Positions 28,824 to 33,268 of a stretch of 34,735 nt of DNA are shown piece by piece. Source of the stretch: a virus; IMG/VR virus record IMGVR_UViG_3300040771_000154, positions 1 through 34,735 of that record; one strand, given 5' to 3'. Position 1 is the first letter of the stretch. Each line of letters starts with the position of its first letter. The notes under the pieces were generated by a model. That model saw only the letters and a list, made by a program, of their open reading frames with translations. It was not told where the DNA came from and made no database searches. The position numbers were made by a program, and so were the translations under genes.

Positions 28824-29072
28824 ATGATAACAGAACAACTAATACCACTTTTGAAGAATAAAAGAGAAAATTTAAAAGGAACAACACTACCAACGGTTAA
28901 ACTTTGGGAATCTGGTACACGTTCGCCATTATTAAAAAACGTTGACCAAATATGTAAAGCAAACGATTTAAAAGTTTTGGTTTATGATGGTAACTTAGAT
29001 ACTTTGATAAATTTTGCGCATAAAGTCGCTAAAGAACAAGGTATGAAAATGATTCTTAATTTTGAGGCTTAA
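28824..29072 (+). CDS. Degenerate XRE-type helix-turn-helix-like protein
   Basis: The 82 residues contain LPTVKLWESGTRSPLLKNVDQICKANDLKV, which looks like the recognition-helix end of an XRE/Cro domain (VxxWESGxRxP). But only about 16 residues precede it (LLKNKRENLKGTTLPTV), so the usual helix 1 to helix 3 spacing is too short. It could be a deleted or divergent Cro-like regulator. The stop codon TAA is inside the core of the first attC-like element (GCTTAAC at 29067..29073), so the gene is fused to the start of the cassette array. Regulation is inferred from the motif only. Confidence 0.45.
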   Translation: MITEQLIPLLKNKRENLKGTTLPTVKLWESGTRSPLLKNVDQICKANDLKVLVYDGNLDTLINFAHKVAKEQGMKMILNFEA

Positions 29073-29144
29073 CGTCCTGCAGCTACACGATGCTAGTCTA
29101 AGTGCTTAGTAGATTCGGCTGCTGAATTATGTTATGTGTTATAA
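29067..29144 (+). repeat. attC-like element 1 (short class)
   Basis: The left core GCTTAAC (29067..29073) matches canonical RYYYAAC and includes the stop of the HTH-like gene. The right core is GTTATAA (29138..29144). The inner stem GCAGC/GCTGC (29080..29084 and about 29118..29122) is followed by a shorter imperfect stem. The right flank TTATAAGTAGTAC is complementary to the left flank of element 2. Confidence 0.55.
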
Positions 29145-29174
29145 GTAGTACGGGTAATTAAAAAAAATGTAATT

Positions 29175-29351
29175 ATGAAAGAAAAATTTAAAAGTTATTT
29201 AGAAAGATTAAAGTCTTTTAATAAAGCGGAAAATTATAATTATACAGATGACGATTTTGATAAGTATAAAGATTATATTAGAGATTGTTGGCTAAGTAAT
29301 TTAAGCGTACATAAATGCCTTGAATTTATGTATTTTGAAACGGAATCGTAG
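29175..29351 (+). CDS. Cassette 1 gene, hypothetical 58-residue protein
   Basis: The ATG at 29175 is in ATTATG context, 36 bases after the right core of element 1. The product begins MKEKFKSYLERLKSFNKAEN and ends ETES, a charged helical protein. The DNA from 29337 to 29366, which includes its last codons and the left core of element 2, is 26 of 30 bases identical to the end of cassette 7 (32537..32566), so the two cassettes share a common 3' end. The function is unknown. Confidence 0.55.
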   Translation: MKEKFKSYLERLKSFNKAENYNYTDDDFDKYKDYIRDCWLSNLSVHKCLEFMYFETES

Positions 29352-29357
29352 TATTAC

Positions 29358-29494
29358 TTATAATGGATCAGTGATATGAGAGGATTTTCGGAACGGAAAT
29401 CACGAATATTTACTGCCAAAACTAATATTACCCAGTACAAAACAATAAATCAATAATCACAAATGCCGAAAATCGCTCATATCACTTGTTACTG
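29358..29494 (+). repeat. attC-like element 2 (long class)
   Basis: The left core is TTATAAT (29358..29364) and the right core GTTACTG (29488..29494). Two perfect arms form one long stem: CAGTGATATGAG (29369..29380) with CTCATATCACTTG (29476..29488), and GATTTTCGG (29383..29391) with CCGAAAATC (29466..29474). The 74-nt loop contains AGTACAAAA, shared with element 8. A short ORF starting in the loop (ATGCCG) reads through the core and stops 6 bases before the next gene. Confidence 0.75.
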
Positions 29495-29525
29495 GCTGTG
29501 CTTTTTCGGCTCAAAAAATTAAAAA

Positions 29526-29948
29526 ATGGATATTAAAACTATCAAAATTAAAAAAGTGGATACTGAAAAATTAATTGAATTTTTAGCAATCCCATTGAAT
29601 GAGAATGAAAAATTATCAATAGATGTTTTTGGAGTTTTTGAAAACAAATTCGGAATCGATACTGATTGTTGTTTCTGGGAAATAAATCAAGCGTTCTTTA
29701 ATGAAAAAATACAAGATGTAATTGATATTGAATGTAGAATTAAGAAGTATAACGATAAAGGAGGTTATTCAATTAGAATGGATAAAGCTGATTTTGTAAA
29801 AACAATTTCTTTAGAAGATTATTTGAAATTATCTGAAGAAGTTATGCTTGTAGATTTTATAAGATTGGATTATAATCCGAGAATTACAGGCAATCAAAAA
29901 TTATTGATGAAACATATTAGACAAAGTTATGCCGTTCCAACCGCATAG
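29526..29948 (+). CDS. Cassette 2 gene, hypothetical 140-residue protein
   Basis: The ATG at 29526 is 37 bases after the core of element 2. The protein is mixed alpha/beta and acidic (TEKLIEFLAIPLNENEKLSIDVFGVFENKFG) with a C-terminal helix (NQKLLMKHIRQSY). No family was recognised. The stop codon is 1 base before the left core of element 3. The flanks TTACTGGCTGTGC and GCATAGCCAGTAA pair at the cassette ends. Confidence 0.55.
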   Translation: MDIKTIKIKKVDTEKLIEFLAIPLNENEKLSIDVFGVFENKFGIDTDCCFWEINQAFFNEKIQDVIDIECRIKKYNDKGGYSIRMDKADFVKTISLEDYLKLSEEVMLVDFIRLDYNPRITGNQKLLMKHIRQSYAVPTA

Positions 29949-29949
29949 C

Positions 29950-30025
29950 CAGTAACGCCTACCGCTACAGCACGCCGCCTAAGTGGTTGCGTAGGTTCGG
30001 CGGTGGTTTGTAACGGTTGTTATGC
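29950..30025 (+). repeat. attC-like element 3 (short class, VCR-like)
   Basis: The left core is CAGTAAC (29950..29956) and the right core GTTATGC (30019..30025). The inner stem CGCCGCCTA (29973..29981) pairs with TAGG..CGGCG (29992..30002). The outer arm has imperfect pairing of ACCGCTACA with TGTAACGGT. The right part (GGTGGTTTGTAACGGTTGTTATG) is reminiscent of Vibrio cassette repeats. Confidence 0.7.
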
Positions 30026-30074
30026 CTTCGCCTTTTTATTTACAACATATTATTAACTAATAAATTATAAAAAA

Positions 30075-30551
30075 ATGAACAATTATTTATTTAAAAAAAT
30101 AGAACAAGCTCACGGAGCTTATTTTGAAAACTTAACTTTTATTGCAAATGAAGTTTGTCGTGAAAGACAATCAGAATCGTTTGAAGAATTTACTGAATTA
30201 GAACCTGCTGAAATAGCAAAAGTTTTAGGATGGAATGACAAAAAAGAAACCCTATCTCTAATTGAAAGCGAAATAAAAGACAAAAGTTTATCTGGATTAT
30301 TATTGAGATACGATATGACTGGATTTTTAGCACAATGTATGATGCCTGAATGTTCAAATTTTAGATTTGAAGAAGGAAAAGAAAGACCTTGCTCGTGGAG
30401 TGTTCACGGTGGAATTTGCAGAATATTTTGGATTTATGCTGAATCAATAGGCGAGCTAGTTGAAAAGTTAGAGCAAAAAGCAGAGAATTTATTTTTAGAA
30501 GCCGTAAATAAATCAAGGTCAGTTGTAGATTCCAACCAAGCTGACGCATAA
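30075..30551 (+). CDS. Cassette 3 gene, hypothetical 158-residue protein
   Basis: This protein has AHGAYFENLTFIANEVCRERQ and four cysteines, with CMMPECSNFRFEEGKERPCSWSVHGGICRIFW as a Cys-rich centre. It is otherwise helical and acidic. Its TAA stop is inside GCATAAC, the left core of element 4, so the last codons are part of the recombination site. No family was recognised. The start is 55 bases after the element 3 right core. Confidence 0.5.
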   Translation: MNNYLFKKIEQAHGAYFENLTFIANEVCRERQSESFEEFTELEPAEIAKVLGWNDKKETLSLIESEIKDKSLSGLLLRYDMTGFLAQCMMPECSNFRFEEGKERPCSWSVHGGICRIFWIYAESIGELVEKLEQKAENLFLEAVNKSRSVVDSNQADA

Positions 30552-30678
30552 CGGTCGAGTGCTTGGCGAAGAAGCGGAAAAGTACATGCTATTTTTCGAT
30601 TAAGCCTAAATTTTAAAGACACAAAATATATTATAAATTAATAACCGAACCCGCTTTTTTGCCAAACACTTGTTATGG
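30546..30678 (+). repeat. attC-like element 4 (long class)
   Basis: The left core GCATAAC (30546..30552) contains the stop codon of cassette 3. The right core is GTTATGG (30672..30678). The stem AGTGCTTGGC (30558..30567) pairs with GCCAAACACT (30661..30670) with one wobble, and AAGCGG (30572..30577) with CCGCTT (30651..30656). The loop is AT-rich, about 73 nt. Confidence 0.75.
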
Positions 30679-30706
30679 TTAGTGCGGTTCATAAAAACAA
30701 AAAGTG

Positions 30707-31183
30707 ATGAAACAATTAAATCAAATTATCAAAACATTAAGAGAAGAAACGGCTTTTTCATTTACCGAAAAGAAATTAGAAATACTTAGAAGTCAAAAAG
30801 ATTATTCAGAAATGATGAAACAATGTTATAGCGGGAAAGATAATACTACTATTGAAGAATGTGAAGAAAACGCTATTAGAACGTTTGTTTCTGAATATCA
30901 AAAAATGTGTGAGATTTATTCAGGATGGTTGAAAAATGGAAAGGTTTTTATTTTAGATAAAAGAGACCATTTTATTCTTGCACTATACAAAGTTGATGAT
31001 ATTGCACATAAGGCAATTGCACAATACAATCCATTGAATGTAGATTGCATTGAGCAATCAATTTCAAATAAACATTTTTTCGAGCAATTAAATATCCGTT
31101 TTGATATTTCTACAAATGAAGAATTATTAATTAAAGAATGTGATTTGTTAATCAAAAATTCAATTGTTTACCCAGCACCGTAG
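30707..31183 (+). CDS. Cassette 4 gene, hypothetical 158-residue protein
   Basis: An ATG at 30707 is favoured over the adjacent GTG at 30704. The protein is helical and charged (LNQIIKTLREETAFSFTEKKLEILRSQKDY), with a C-terminal part containing NEELLIKECDLLIKNSIV. No family was recognised. The start is 34 bases from the right core of element 4. The flanks TTATGGTTAGTGCGGT and ACCGTAGCATTAACCATAA pair across the cassette. Confidence 0.5.
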   Translation: MKQLNQIIKTLREETAFSFTEKKLEILRSQKDYSEMMKQCYSGKDNTTIEECEENAIRTFVSEYQKMCEIYSGWLKNGKVFILDKRDHFILALYKVDDIAHKAIAQYNPLNVDCIEQSISNKHFFEQLNIRFDISTNEELLIKECDLLIKNSIVYPAP

Positions 31184-31189
31184 CATTAA

Positions 31190-31321
31190 CCATAACGGAA
31201 TGTGGCTTTATTTCAGTTGCAAAATTCGTAACCGATAATTTTCGGCTAATAAAAAACGACTTTCGAAAGATAATTTTGATTTTATCAGATATTTTGCAAT
31301 TGAATAAAACCACTGTTATCG
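31190..31321 (+). repeat. attC-like element 5 (long class, best stem)
   Basis: The left core is CCATAAC (31190..31196) and the right core GTTATCG (31315..31321). The main stem (31202..31225 with 31291..31313) is 23 pairs with one bulged base and two wobble-type differences, reading GTGGCTTTATTTCAGTTGC on the left. The intervening loop is about 65 nt and AT-rich with a few short hairpins. Confidence 0.8.
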
Positions 31322-31382
31322 CTAGTTGCAAGTAGTTCAGAAAAATACTTTAGAAAATAATTTAAATATTTTATAAAAACAC

Positions 31383-31412
31383 TTGTTTATTATAAAATAA
31401 GTTATATATTTG
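31383..31412 (+). promoter_or_regulatory. Cassette 5 internal promoter, TTG-N19-TATATTTG
   Basis: TTG (31383..31385 region) lies 19 bases before TATATTTG (31405..31412), an exact match to the Bacteroidota promoter. It precedes the first gene of cassette 5 by 42 bases. None of the other cassettes shows such a promoter. Confidence 0.65.
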
Positions 31413-31454
31413 CTAAAGAAATAACAACGAAGTTATTTTGTAATTTTTATTATT

Positions 31455-31700
31455 ATGAATAATGTTTATACAAATAGTCGTCCAACTGAAAGTTTTTGCA
31501 AACTAAAAGCTACTTGTGGATTACACGGTAATTTAGACATTCACGGAATGGAATGGAGCGAAAGAGTTATTTTAAAAGTAGTTGCTTTTGATAGAACTAA
31601 CGGAGTTTTAATCGTTGAAAATGATAACGGATTAAAATGGAATACAGATTTGAAGAAAATGCAATTCTGTTTAGAGAATGGCAATTCAGTTCCAAACTAA
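31455..31700 (+). CDS. Cassette 5 first gene, hypothetical 81-residue protein
   Basis: This protein has SRPTESFCKLKATCGLHGNLDIHGMEWSERVILKVVAFD, a small beta domain with two cysteines. The pattern resembles small single-domain proteins found in phages and plasmids of Flavobacteriia. It is driven by the promoter at 31383..31412 and is translated immediately before the next gene (ATG at 31702, one base after its stop). No activity was assigned; a toxin-antitoxin or defence pair is possible but not shown. Confidence 0.55.
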   Translation: MNNVYTNSRPTESFCKLKATCGLHGNLDIHGMEWSERVILKVVAFDRTNGVLIVENDNGLKWNTDLKKMQFCLENGNSVPN

Positions 31701-31701
31701 A

Positions 31702-31902
31702 ATGCCATTCATCCTAAAAAATAAAGAAACCGAGCAATATAGATTGTTCGGTTCTTTACCTATCCTTTGCCGAAGCATTGGATTTGACGAAAAAAAAGAG
31801 AAAAATTTGCTTTACACTTTCTCTCAAAAAAAAGAAATAAAGTTTGAAAATAACGAGTTTCTAATTGTAAAAGTCTTTTTAGAACGTGGTGGCAGCAATT
31901 AG
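31702..31902 (+). CDS. Cassette 5 second gene, hypothetical 66-residue protein
   Basis: Starting at 31702 the product is MPFILKNKETEQYRLFGSL..., 66 residues; an in-frame start at 31678 that overlaps the first gene is also possible. Basic and beta-rich segments are followed by EFLIVKVFLERGGSN. Its TAG stop is immediately before the left core of element 6, so the last codons are part of the outer arm. It forms a two-gene unit with the upstream gene. Confidence 0.5.
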   Translation: MPFILKNKETEQYRLFGSLPILCRSIGFDEKKEKNLLYTFSQKKEIKFENNEFLIVKVFLERGGSN

Positions 31903-32036
31903 CGATAACGTTTTGCGGCTTTGTCGTCGTTGTGGCGTTTGAACACAAATATTAACAAAGAAAACAAATCATTAAATTATGCCAAATACTTCCAAAAATG
32001 CCCAAGTGCCACAATGCGACAAAACCGCTGTTAGCA
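31903..32036 (+). repeat. attC-like element 6 (long class)
   Basis: The left core is CGATAAC (31903..31909) and the right core GTTAGCA (32030..32036). The left arm (31913..31940, TTGCGGCTTTGTCGTCGTTG) pairs with the right arm (32004..32029, which includes GCGACAAAACCGC). The loop contains an ATGCCA start whose frame runs through the core into cassette 6. Confidence 0.75.
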
Positions 32037-32176
32037 GTAGTTATTCGTTAGATGAAGTTAGAAATATTGTTCTTGAAATGCGTAATGAAGCGATATCTGG
32101 TTTAAGAGGTGAGAGGCGTTGGGACATGCAAAAACGACTTGGTAAAATAAGAGATAAATGGAAGTTGGGGTATTAA
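31979..32176 (+). CDS. Cassette 6 ORF spanning the recombination site
   Basis: The reading frame starts in the loop of element 6 (MPNTSKNAQVPQC...), crosses the GTTAGCA core at codons 18-20 and continues with SLDEVRNIVLEMRNEAISGLRGERRWDMQKRLGKI and more, 65 residues. The first 17 codons belong to the upstream element, so in another array position the N-terminus would differ. The body is a short basic helical protein. An internal start (MRNEAISG...) is possible. No family was recognised. Confidence 0.45.
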   Translation: MPNTSKNAQVPQCDKTAVSSSYSLDEVRNIVLEMRNEAISGLRGERRWDMQKRLGKIRDKWKLGY

Positions 32177-32180
32177 TTAC

Positions 32181-32259
32181 TGCTAACGTTCCCGCGATAG
32201 GGGCTGTTTGCCTATGCGGAAACCTACTTTCGGCAAATAGACCTTATCGTGTGTTATCA
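32181..32259 (+). repeat. attC-like element 7 (short class)
   Basis: The left core is TGCTAAC (32181..32187) and the right core GTTATCA (32253..32259). The stem is CGATAGGGGCTGTTTGCC (32195..32212) with GGCAAATAGACCTTATCG (32232..32249), 14 of 18 positions Watson-Crick plus wobbles. The flanks TTATCAATATTATG and AATATTATTGATAA pair. Confidence 0.75.
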
Positions 32260-32290
32260 ATATTATGAATTATTAAAACAAAAATAAATT

Positions 32291-32551
32291 ATGGAAACTA
32301 AAAAACCAAACAATCCAAGTGCATTTCCTGTAATAGCTACAGAACAATCGTTTTTTAATCAAAGCCCATTAATGCCTGAATCAGGAATGACTTTAAGAGA
32401 CCATTTTGCTGGATTAGCAATGCAGGGATTAATGTCAATGGAAGAAAAAGGAGAGTATCAAACAATTGATGATGCTTGGAGGAAAATAGCTGAATACTCG
32501 TATCAAATGGCTAACGCTATGCTAAAAGTTCGTGAAGAAACGGAATCGTAA
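32291..32551 (+). CDS. Cassette 7 gene, phage-type small protein
   Basis: This 86-residue protein contains ESGMTLRDHFAGLAMQGLMS and a helical C-terminus (DAWRKIAEYSYQMANAMLKVREETES). The MTLRDxFAxxAMQGL pattern is common in small hypothetical proteins encoded by phages of Gram-negative bacteria. The start is in AAATTATGG context, 37 bases after the core. Its 3' end is 26 of 30 bases identical to that of cassette 1. The function is unknown. Confidence 0.65.
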   Translation: METKKPNNPSAFPVIATEQSFFNQSPLMPESGMTLRDHFAGLAMQGLMSMEEKGEYQTIDDAWRKIAEYSYQMANAMLKVREETES

Positions 32552-32557
32552 TATTAT

Positions 32558-32690
32558 TGATAACGGTTCGCTAGTAGGCGATGGTTAGGGTCAGGATTCT
32601 AATTGTGGCGAATTCTCCTTAATTAAACCAAGTACAAAAAACTAATTAAATTAATCACGATGCCCAACTATTGCTTACTAGCTGTTAGCA
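32558..32690 (+). repeat. attC-like element 8 (long class)
   Basis: The left core is TGATAAC (32558..32564) and the right core GTTAGCA (32684..32690). The stem GCTAGTAGGCGATGGTTAGG (32570..32590) pairs with CCCAACTATTGCTTACTAGC (32663..32682), with one bulged base and wobbles. The loop contains AGTACAAAA as in element 2, plus a 26-base inverted-repeat arm (32600..32625). Confidence 0.75.
32600..32625 (+). repeat. Inverted repeat arm L
   Basis: The 26 bases from TAATTGTGGCGAATTC onward match the reverse complement of 33266..33291 at 25 of 26 positions. This arm lies in the loop of element 8. The segment between the two arms holds cassette 8, the half-site and the 32984..33268 gene. Confidence 0.85.
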
Positions 32691-32721
32691 TTTGTGCGGG
32701 TAACTAAAACTAAATATTATT

Positions 32722-32934
32722 ATGAAAGCAATAGGAAATTATTTGCCGTGGGAATCTGGATATTATGAAAGTTCAGGTTCATATAAAAAAAGCAATGGAG
32801 AATTAATATTTTGTTATACTTATTATTTCTCTGGAAAAGCGGAACAAATTGAAACAAGACACCCTATAGATTGTGGTAAATTAAATAAAGAGATTGAAGA
32901 AAAATGTAATTCAAAAACGAAAATACAGCATTGA
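32722..32934 (+). CDS. Cassette 8 gene, hypothetical 70-residue protein
   Basis: The product starts MKAIGNYLPWESGYYESSGS with an aromatic, Gly-rich N-terminal half (ELIFCYTYYFSGKAEQIE) and a basic C-terminus. Its TGA stop overlaps the left core of the following half-site (TGCTAAC). The start is 37 bases after the element 8 right core. No family was recognised. Confidence 0.5.
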   Translation: MKAIGNYLPWESGYYESSGSYKKSNGELIFCYTYYFSGKAEQIETRHPIDCGKLNKEIEEKCNSKTKIQH

Positions 32935-32941
32935 TGCTAAC
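32935..32941 (+). repeat. Half attC-like site at the end of the array
   Basis: TGCTAAC is complementary to the right core GTTAGCA of element 8, and the outer flanks GCATTGATGCTAA and TTAGCATTTGTGC pair. No matching right arm follows; the next 40 bases are unpaired and lead into the 32984 gene. The array is therefore truncated here. Confidence 0.55.
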
Positions 32942-32983
32942 TCATCCATACAACTAACTAACCTATTCAATACCCTGTAAACA

Positions 32984-33268
32984 ATGACTTCAAACCTTGA
33001 CAAAAATTATTTTATCACTTATTCAAACTATTTTAAAATAGATAATAAGACGTTTGCATTTAGAAAAAAAGTTTTGTTTGACATCACTAATTTACCTATC
33101 AAACTAGAGTTAAAAGACAATAATAATTGTTTAGGTTATTGGATAAATCGAAAATGGTATAGTTTAAGTAAATTAGAGCCATTAGTTAAAAAAGAGAATA
33201 TTAAAAAAGATGTTAGTATATTGCAATGGAATGAACAAATACATTTAGATTATGTGTTTAATATCTAA
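32984..33268 (+). CDS. Hypothetical protein, 94 residues, after the array
   Basis: The protein begins MTSNLDKNYFITYSNYFKIDNKTFAFRKKVLFDI, with beta-strand alternation and a WINRKWYSLSKLEPLVKKENI segment. No family was recognised. It lies between the array half-site and the 43-residue membrane peptide. The IR arm at 33266..33291 begins within its stop codon. Confidence 0.5.
   Translation: MTSNLDKNYFITYSNYFKIDNKTFAFRKKVLFDITNLPIKLELKDNNNCLGYWINRKWYSLSKLEPLVKKENIKKDVSILQWNEQIHLDYVFNI

Follow-up and report, generated by a model that had tools for sequence, protein, structure and literature searches.

Integron-type cassette arrays without an integrase have already been reported in virulent phages, where some of them are active with the integrase IntI1 (Qi et al., 2023; PMC9892861); Flavobacterium is not mentioned in the main text of that study. 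In Bacteroidetes, the IntegronFinder 2.0 survey (PMC9024848) recorded only In0 elements and one complete integron, and the taxon-specific attC models leave this group out. Integrons are likewise unmentioned in the description of the Lillamyvirus and Muminvirus phages (PMC7077304), whose methyltransferase content varies and goes with efficiency of plating. Here we analysed a viral record of 34,735 bases (IMG/VR record IMGVR_UViG_3300040771_000154, positions 1 to 34,735; hereafter the window), which encodes terminase, portal, tape-measure, replication, exonuclease and endolysin proteins and presents, at positions 29070-32941, eight TAAC/TAAT...GTTA elements between nine small plus-strand open reading frames (ORFs). 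This region is very probably an integrase-less array of an integron lineage specific to Bacteroidota, worked in trans by IntL (the name used here for the IntI-related tyrosine recombinase of these Bacteroidota) as a set of exchangeable accessory genes. The original prediction, made from the window alone, considered phage arrays of this kind not to be well described, which does not hold in view of the arrays published by Qi et al.; what appear to be new are the lineage, its recombinase and the anatomy of its sites, of which no description was found in the literature searched, preprints and most subscription journals not included.

The integron-type layout proposed in that prediction is strongly supported. 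No integrase gene is present in the window record, and the eight sites, six of them supported by a model, correspond to a CALIN, a cluster of attC sites lacking integrase (at least two attC sites close together and no intI). The model, R1, is a covariance model built from 58 sites in attC polarity, with compensatory changes in 14/14 pairs. Besides the Lillamyvirus arrays, it matches six window elements (29361, 30549, 31193, 31906, 32184 and 32561; E 1e-5 to 1e-18), and a search against Rfam gave no match. Folding of each element as single-stranded DNA, proposed as a check, bore out elements 2, 4, 5, 6 and 7, which fold better than dinucleotide shuffles (z -2.4 to -3.2); this advantage is weaker for element 8 (z -1.7) and absent for elements 1 and 3. 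The covariation and matches of R1, with folding in 5/8 window sites, indicate imperfect single-strand hairpins with R'' and R' cores, as in attC sites.

Both ends of an integron cassette meet in the excised circle, so that complementarity between the two ends of the same cassette is predicted for an integron. When every cassette start (right of GTTA) was compared with every cassette end (left of TAAC), pairing within the same window cassette gave 65 matches versus 30 across one hairpin (permutation p = 5e-6). For 393 cassettes, own-cassette complementarity is 0.81-0.93 at positions 5-9, 0.52-0.65 at position 10, 0.01-0.02 at position 11 and 0.64-0.79 at positions 12-15, with background values past position 15; position 11 of the cassette 5' end is an A in 389/393. 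Control cassettes from Vibrio and Shewanella (23 cassettes) also show complementary ends, but pairing stops near position 9 and the dip at position 11 is missing, which makes the unpaired position 11 a signature of this site type.

These data bear on the possibility that the window carries canonical cassettes (IntI/attC, of Vibrio or class 1 type) taken from a proteobacterial-type integron, as in other virulent phages. The layout and the logic of a cut between G and TT are alike, and IntI1 used five of the six attC sites of virulent phages assayed by Qi et al. (2023), but R1 matches none of the sites in the genomes of Vibrio, Shewanella and Polaribacter phage P12002L that have canonical integron parts, and pairing extends to 15 bp with a fixed mismatch, versus about 9 in the controls. 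The cores also depart from GTTRRRY/RYYYAAC: GTTA is invariant, and position 5 of R' is T or C in 58% and a purine in only 42% (on the strand used in the original prediction; the two strands mirror each other). The taxonomic distribution points in the same direction. A genome scan with the cassette-3 protein as query found nothing, and the DNA pattern of the site worked instead: a degenerate pattern had at least 120 matches among viral contigs and at least 119 among genomes, and the 80 genome loci among the matches listed are all from Bacteroidota, one of them labelled Chlorobi. R1 has matches in 22/22 Bacteroidota genomes tested and in 95/198 genomes drawn across the phylum (E 1e-6). A proteobacterial-type origin of the window cassettes is thus unlikely.

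All 22 examined genomes encode tyrosine recombinases that match the integron-integrase model at its N- and C-terminal ends, with about 60 positions skipped in between. In alignments, these IntL proteins lack the IntI-specific insertion (about 33 residues), most of them keep the SPLDxL-type terminus of IntI, and they score under the TIGR02249 cut-off. In the tree, the IntL proteins constitute a clade (96/92) whose sister group is IntI (100/98) and which is separate from XerC/XerD, and the predicted structure of a 267-aa IntL resembles both XerA and IntI. R1 sites are present in the flanks of 17/20 IntL genes versus 0/20 XerC/XerD genes of the same genomes; three IntL regions (L257, L266 and L267) lack neighbouring sites. 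In 17/17 chromosomal regions with sites, these point away from IntL; the recombinase is directed along the array in 12 of the 17 and divergently in 5. Flavobacterium LMO8, a strain isolated together with the hosts of the phages, has a cassette array abutting a 580-aa IntL. Nine phage contigs (L030, L054, L108, L008, L024, L124, L085, L046 and L038) encode their own recombinase of 266-284 aa beside cassette arrays, with 40/40 sites pointing away from it, and apparently correspond to complete phage-borne integrons. An array adjoining the integrase, with attC sites pointing away, is therefore found in 17/17 chromosomal regions and 9/9 phage contigs, and not in the window. That hairpins adjoin IntL recombinases argues against their being found only as ordinary terminators.

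Three loci have peculiar features. The LMO8 recombinase (L258:1075-2817, minus strand) has a long N-terminal extension, in which a domain is apparently repeated and no Pfam match was detected. Another IntL (L255:8616-9671, minus strand) is fused to an N-terminal single-strand binding (SSB) domain, which would fit with activity on folded single-stranded substrates but may stem from the assembly. On the chromosome of a metagenome-assembled genome (CP058707.1, positions 3475214-3982497, loci L304-L329), 336 sites are spread across about 507 kb, the best 300 of the 336 being all on one strand, and an IntL is located at one end; this array is possibly a giant superintegron.

Relatives of the window phage exhibit cassette mobility. 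Element 6 has counterparts of 81% identity in two dozen records of Lillamyvirus, which are virulent Flavobacterium phages, and these counterparts precede a DNA methyltransferase gene. About 12-17 cassettes showing the end signature of the window cassettes make up the arrays of Lillamyvirus and Muminvirus phages. Between the near-identical isolates lillamy9-1 and lillamy9-3, whose genomes are of equal length, comparison of the first 9.9 kb revealed point changes, small replacements and one 439-bp cassette moved exactly from the middle of the array to the first position. An identical flank, ending in ..TAATATTGTA before GTTA, precedes five different first cassettes in eleven phages. This Lillamyvirus flank behaves as an attI site; an attI-like end was also found after IntL, and the insertion point of the window is assigned by analogy only. 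Cassettes thus vary among relatives instead of forming a fixed block, and their gain or loss exactly at GTTA, the behaviour expected from the original prediction, is seen in Lillamyvirus. The exact relocation of the 439-bp unit also settled to which cassette each hairpin belongs, a point on which ungapped hairpin comparison was ambiguous for some cassettes. Among the cassettes that vary, a methyltransferase cassette (L002:2305-3079, with a counterpart in L004) is carried by 4/4 examined phages isolated on LMO6 but not by lillamy9-1 or morran9-1, two phages that changed in efficiency of plating according to their last host; its product is likely the methyltransferase referred to by Nilsson (2020).

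These observations can be set against two further explanations. The hairpins could be ordinary terminators or repeats, with genes swapped by homologous recombination through an exonuclease-type phage system. The window does encode a recombination-type exonuclease and the hairpins are located between genes, but hairpin sequences differ within one array, complementarity joins the ends of a cassette and not the sides of a hairpin, a 439-bp unit moved exactly, and the sites cluster and orient at IntL, all of which makes this explanation very improbable. Equally improbable in our view is that the cassettes are small transposons bounded by terminal inverted repeats of 15 bp, the hairpins being by-products: each cassette body does have terminal inverted complementarity with GTTA ends, but the end sequence varies from one cassette to the next with no fixed transposase site, the arrays are head-to-tail in one orientation beside an IntI-like recombinase, and new units are inserted at a single fixed site.

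The direction of the array had to be revised. The attC sites read TAACA..CGTTA in every integron control, which in the window corresponds to the minus strand; the polarity assumed in the original prediction, initially retained in our analysis, was reversed and was rejected on these controls. It follows that the window array starts at its right end and that its genes are antisense to attC polarity. Among phage cassettes, the antisense orientation outnumbers the sense one 192:2 in viral contigs and 29:0 in Lillamyvirus (3/3 antisense in the window), whereas chromosomal cassette genes are sense to attC 74:18, and 15:1 beside the recombinase. Cassette genes running in the same direction as attC, as in integrons, are thus mostly found in chromosomes and not in phages. 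Consequently, each phage attC lies at the 5' end of its own gene, and each window hairpin goes with the downstream gene. An in-frame ATG is present within the cassette's own attC in 70/217 phage cassettes versus 40 expected (attCs swapped), and in two Lillamyvirus methyltransferases the cassette body seems to offer no obvious start codon upstream of the conserved N-terminal motif. The unrelated genes at window positions 31979-32176 and at L002:5085-6062 have a common N-terminal peptide, SKNAQVPQCDKT, because this peptide is encoded by similar attC sites and not by the genes.

Each cassette unit consists of one or two small genes and one attC-like site. We propose that the window phage, having no integrase of its own, would need one in trans, and that either the host or a co-infecting phage could supply IntL. 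IntL would be the enzyme and would most likely act on the folded single-stranded attC site; cassettes would be excised as circles after a cut between G and TTA (between TAA and C on the plus strand) and inserted at the attI-like right end, near 32941. If active, the array would function as an exchangeable accessory gene set of the phages, in relatives often comprising DNA methyltransferases that probably counter host restriction. More broadly, we consider it probable that Bacteroidota possess a separate branch of integrons that has escaped notice owing to an integrase devoid of the IntI-specific domain and to different attC sites. This branch would range from self-contained phage integrons with a 267-aa integrase to superintegrons of about 0.5 Mb, and phages would share a market of reversed accessory cassettes, often methyltransferases, with some genes starting inside the attC hairpin.

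Several points weigh against an IntL-driven array. Cassette excision and insertion are seen as a genomic footprint, and the window record carries no integrase. The window phage itself gave no instance of a cassette gained or lost, and element 1 is weak. The genomes of the linkage test were preselected for having sites, with control regions drawn from the same genomes. Finally, IntL lacks a domain that is reportedly necessary for IntI1 activity (Messier and Roy, 2001).

The window array can be described from its proximal, right end, all sites being on the minus strand and all ORFs on the plus strand. The attI-like end (32938..32990), which reads ..GTTGTATGGATGA followed by GTTAGCATC on the minus strand, is called the insertion end by analogy with Lillamyvirus; the bare core at 32938-32941 closes the last cassette, and no hairpin is present past this core. 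Site 8 (32561..32687; R1 64 bits, E 1.6e-12) precedes a 70-aa ORF (32722..32934), and site 7, of short type (32184..32256; 35.9 bits, z -3.2), an 86-aa ORF (32291..32551) of the phage family phrog_2201, function unknown. Site 6 (31906..32033; 88.7 bits), whose Lillamyvirus counterparts lie beside other genes, holds the start codon of the 65-aa ORF of cassette 6 (31979..32176), the N-terminus of which is common to a Lillamyvirus methyltransferase. Site 5 (31193..31318; 71.4 bits, z -2.6) is followed by two ORFs of 81 aa (31455..31700) and 66 aa (31702..31902), and site 4 (30549..30675; 88 bits, z -3.0) by one of 158 aa (30707..31183). Site 3, also short (29953..30022), is missed by R1 and folds ordinarily, and was recognized by its arm architecture and cassette-end complementarity; its ORF (30075..30551), again of 158 aa, has a 66% homologue beside different hairpins in the phage contig L001. 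Site 2, with a TAAT core (29361..29491; 64.1 bits, z -3.0), precedes a 140-aa ORF (29526..29948), and site 1 (29070..29141) a 58-aa ORF (29175..29351). Site 1 has one typical TAACG arm and a poor, unrelated one, as though a distal attC had been altered by decay, or by recombination with phage sequence where the gene at 28824 ends, and its fold is not above shuffles; it is probably the degenerate distal end of the array. The predicted eight-element array with its nine ORFs therefore stands with element 1 doubtful, and the predicted regular spacing of starts after the core applies to six ORFs (32-53 bases) but not to ORF 31979, which begins within its own hairpin, nor to the two ORFs of cassette 5, which begin farther from the core. 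None of the cassette proteins could be assigned a function by searches with Pfam, PHROGs and PADLOC, the match to phrog_2201 being the sole family match.

Integrons are regarded as nearly absent from Bacteroidetes (PMC9024848), so that a lineage present in many phages and in about half of the sampled genomes would represent a major additional system of gene exchange. It would also suggest that recombination at hairpin sites can do without the IntI-specific domain, provide a sister group for the study of integron origins and, via the methyltransferase cassette of the LMO6-isolated phages, tie cassette shuffling to phage host range.

Compared with the IntI integrons of Vibrio and Shewanella (sedentary chromosomal), the present system has in common one attC per cassette, the TAACA..CGTTA polarity, the G/TTA cut logic, complementary cassette ends, an array beside a tyrosine recombinase and insertion at one end. 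It differs in that IntL has no IntI-specific insertion, R1 does not cross-match, the outer arms of the sites extend over 15 bp and keep position 11 mismatched, and the phage genes are antisense to attC. The CALINs of virulent phages (Qi et al., 2023; PMC9892861) are similar in lacking an integrase and in their methyltransferase cargo; Polaribacter phage P12002L, expected to be the nearest relative, was nevertheless excluded as a member, R1 finding none of its sites. The Bacteroidetes integrons detected by IntegronFinder (Salinibacter ruber, In0) are from the same phylum but rare, unlike the sites described here. XerA, XerC and XerD share the tyrosine-recombinase fold, and the NCBIfam XerA is the nearest curated name for IntL, but IntL groups with IntI and not with Bacteroidota Xer (100/98), most IntL proteins end in SPLDxL or similar, and no sites are found near Xer genes. 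The system works like an integron and is not an IntI integron by definition, because it has neither the IntI-specific domain nor the GTTRRRY core; the window array is one integrase-less phage copy of this integron variant.

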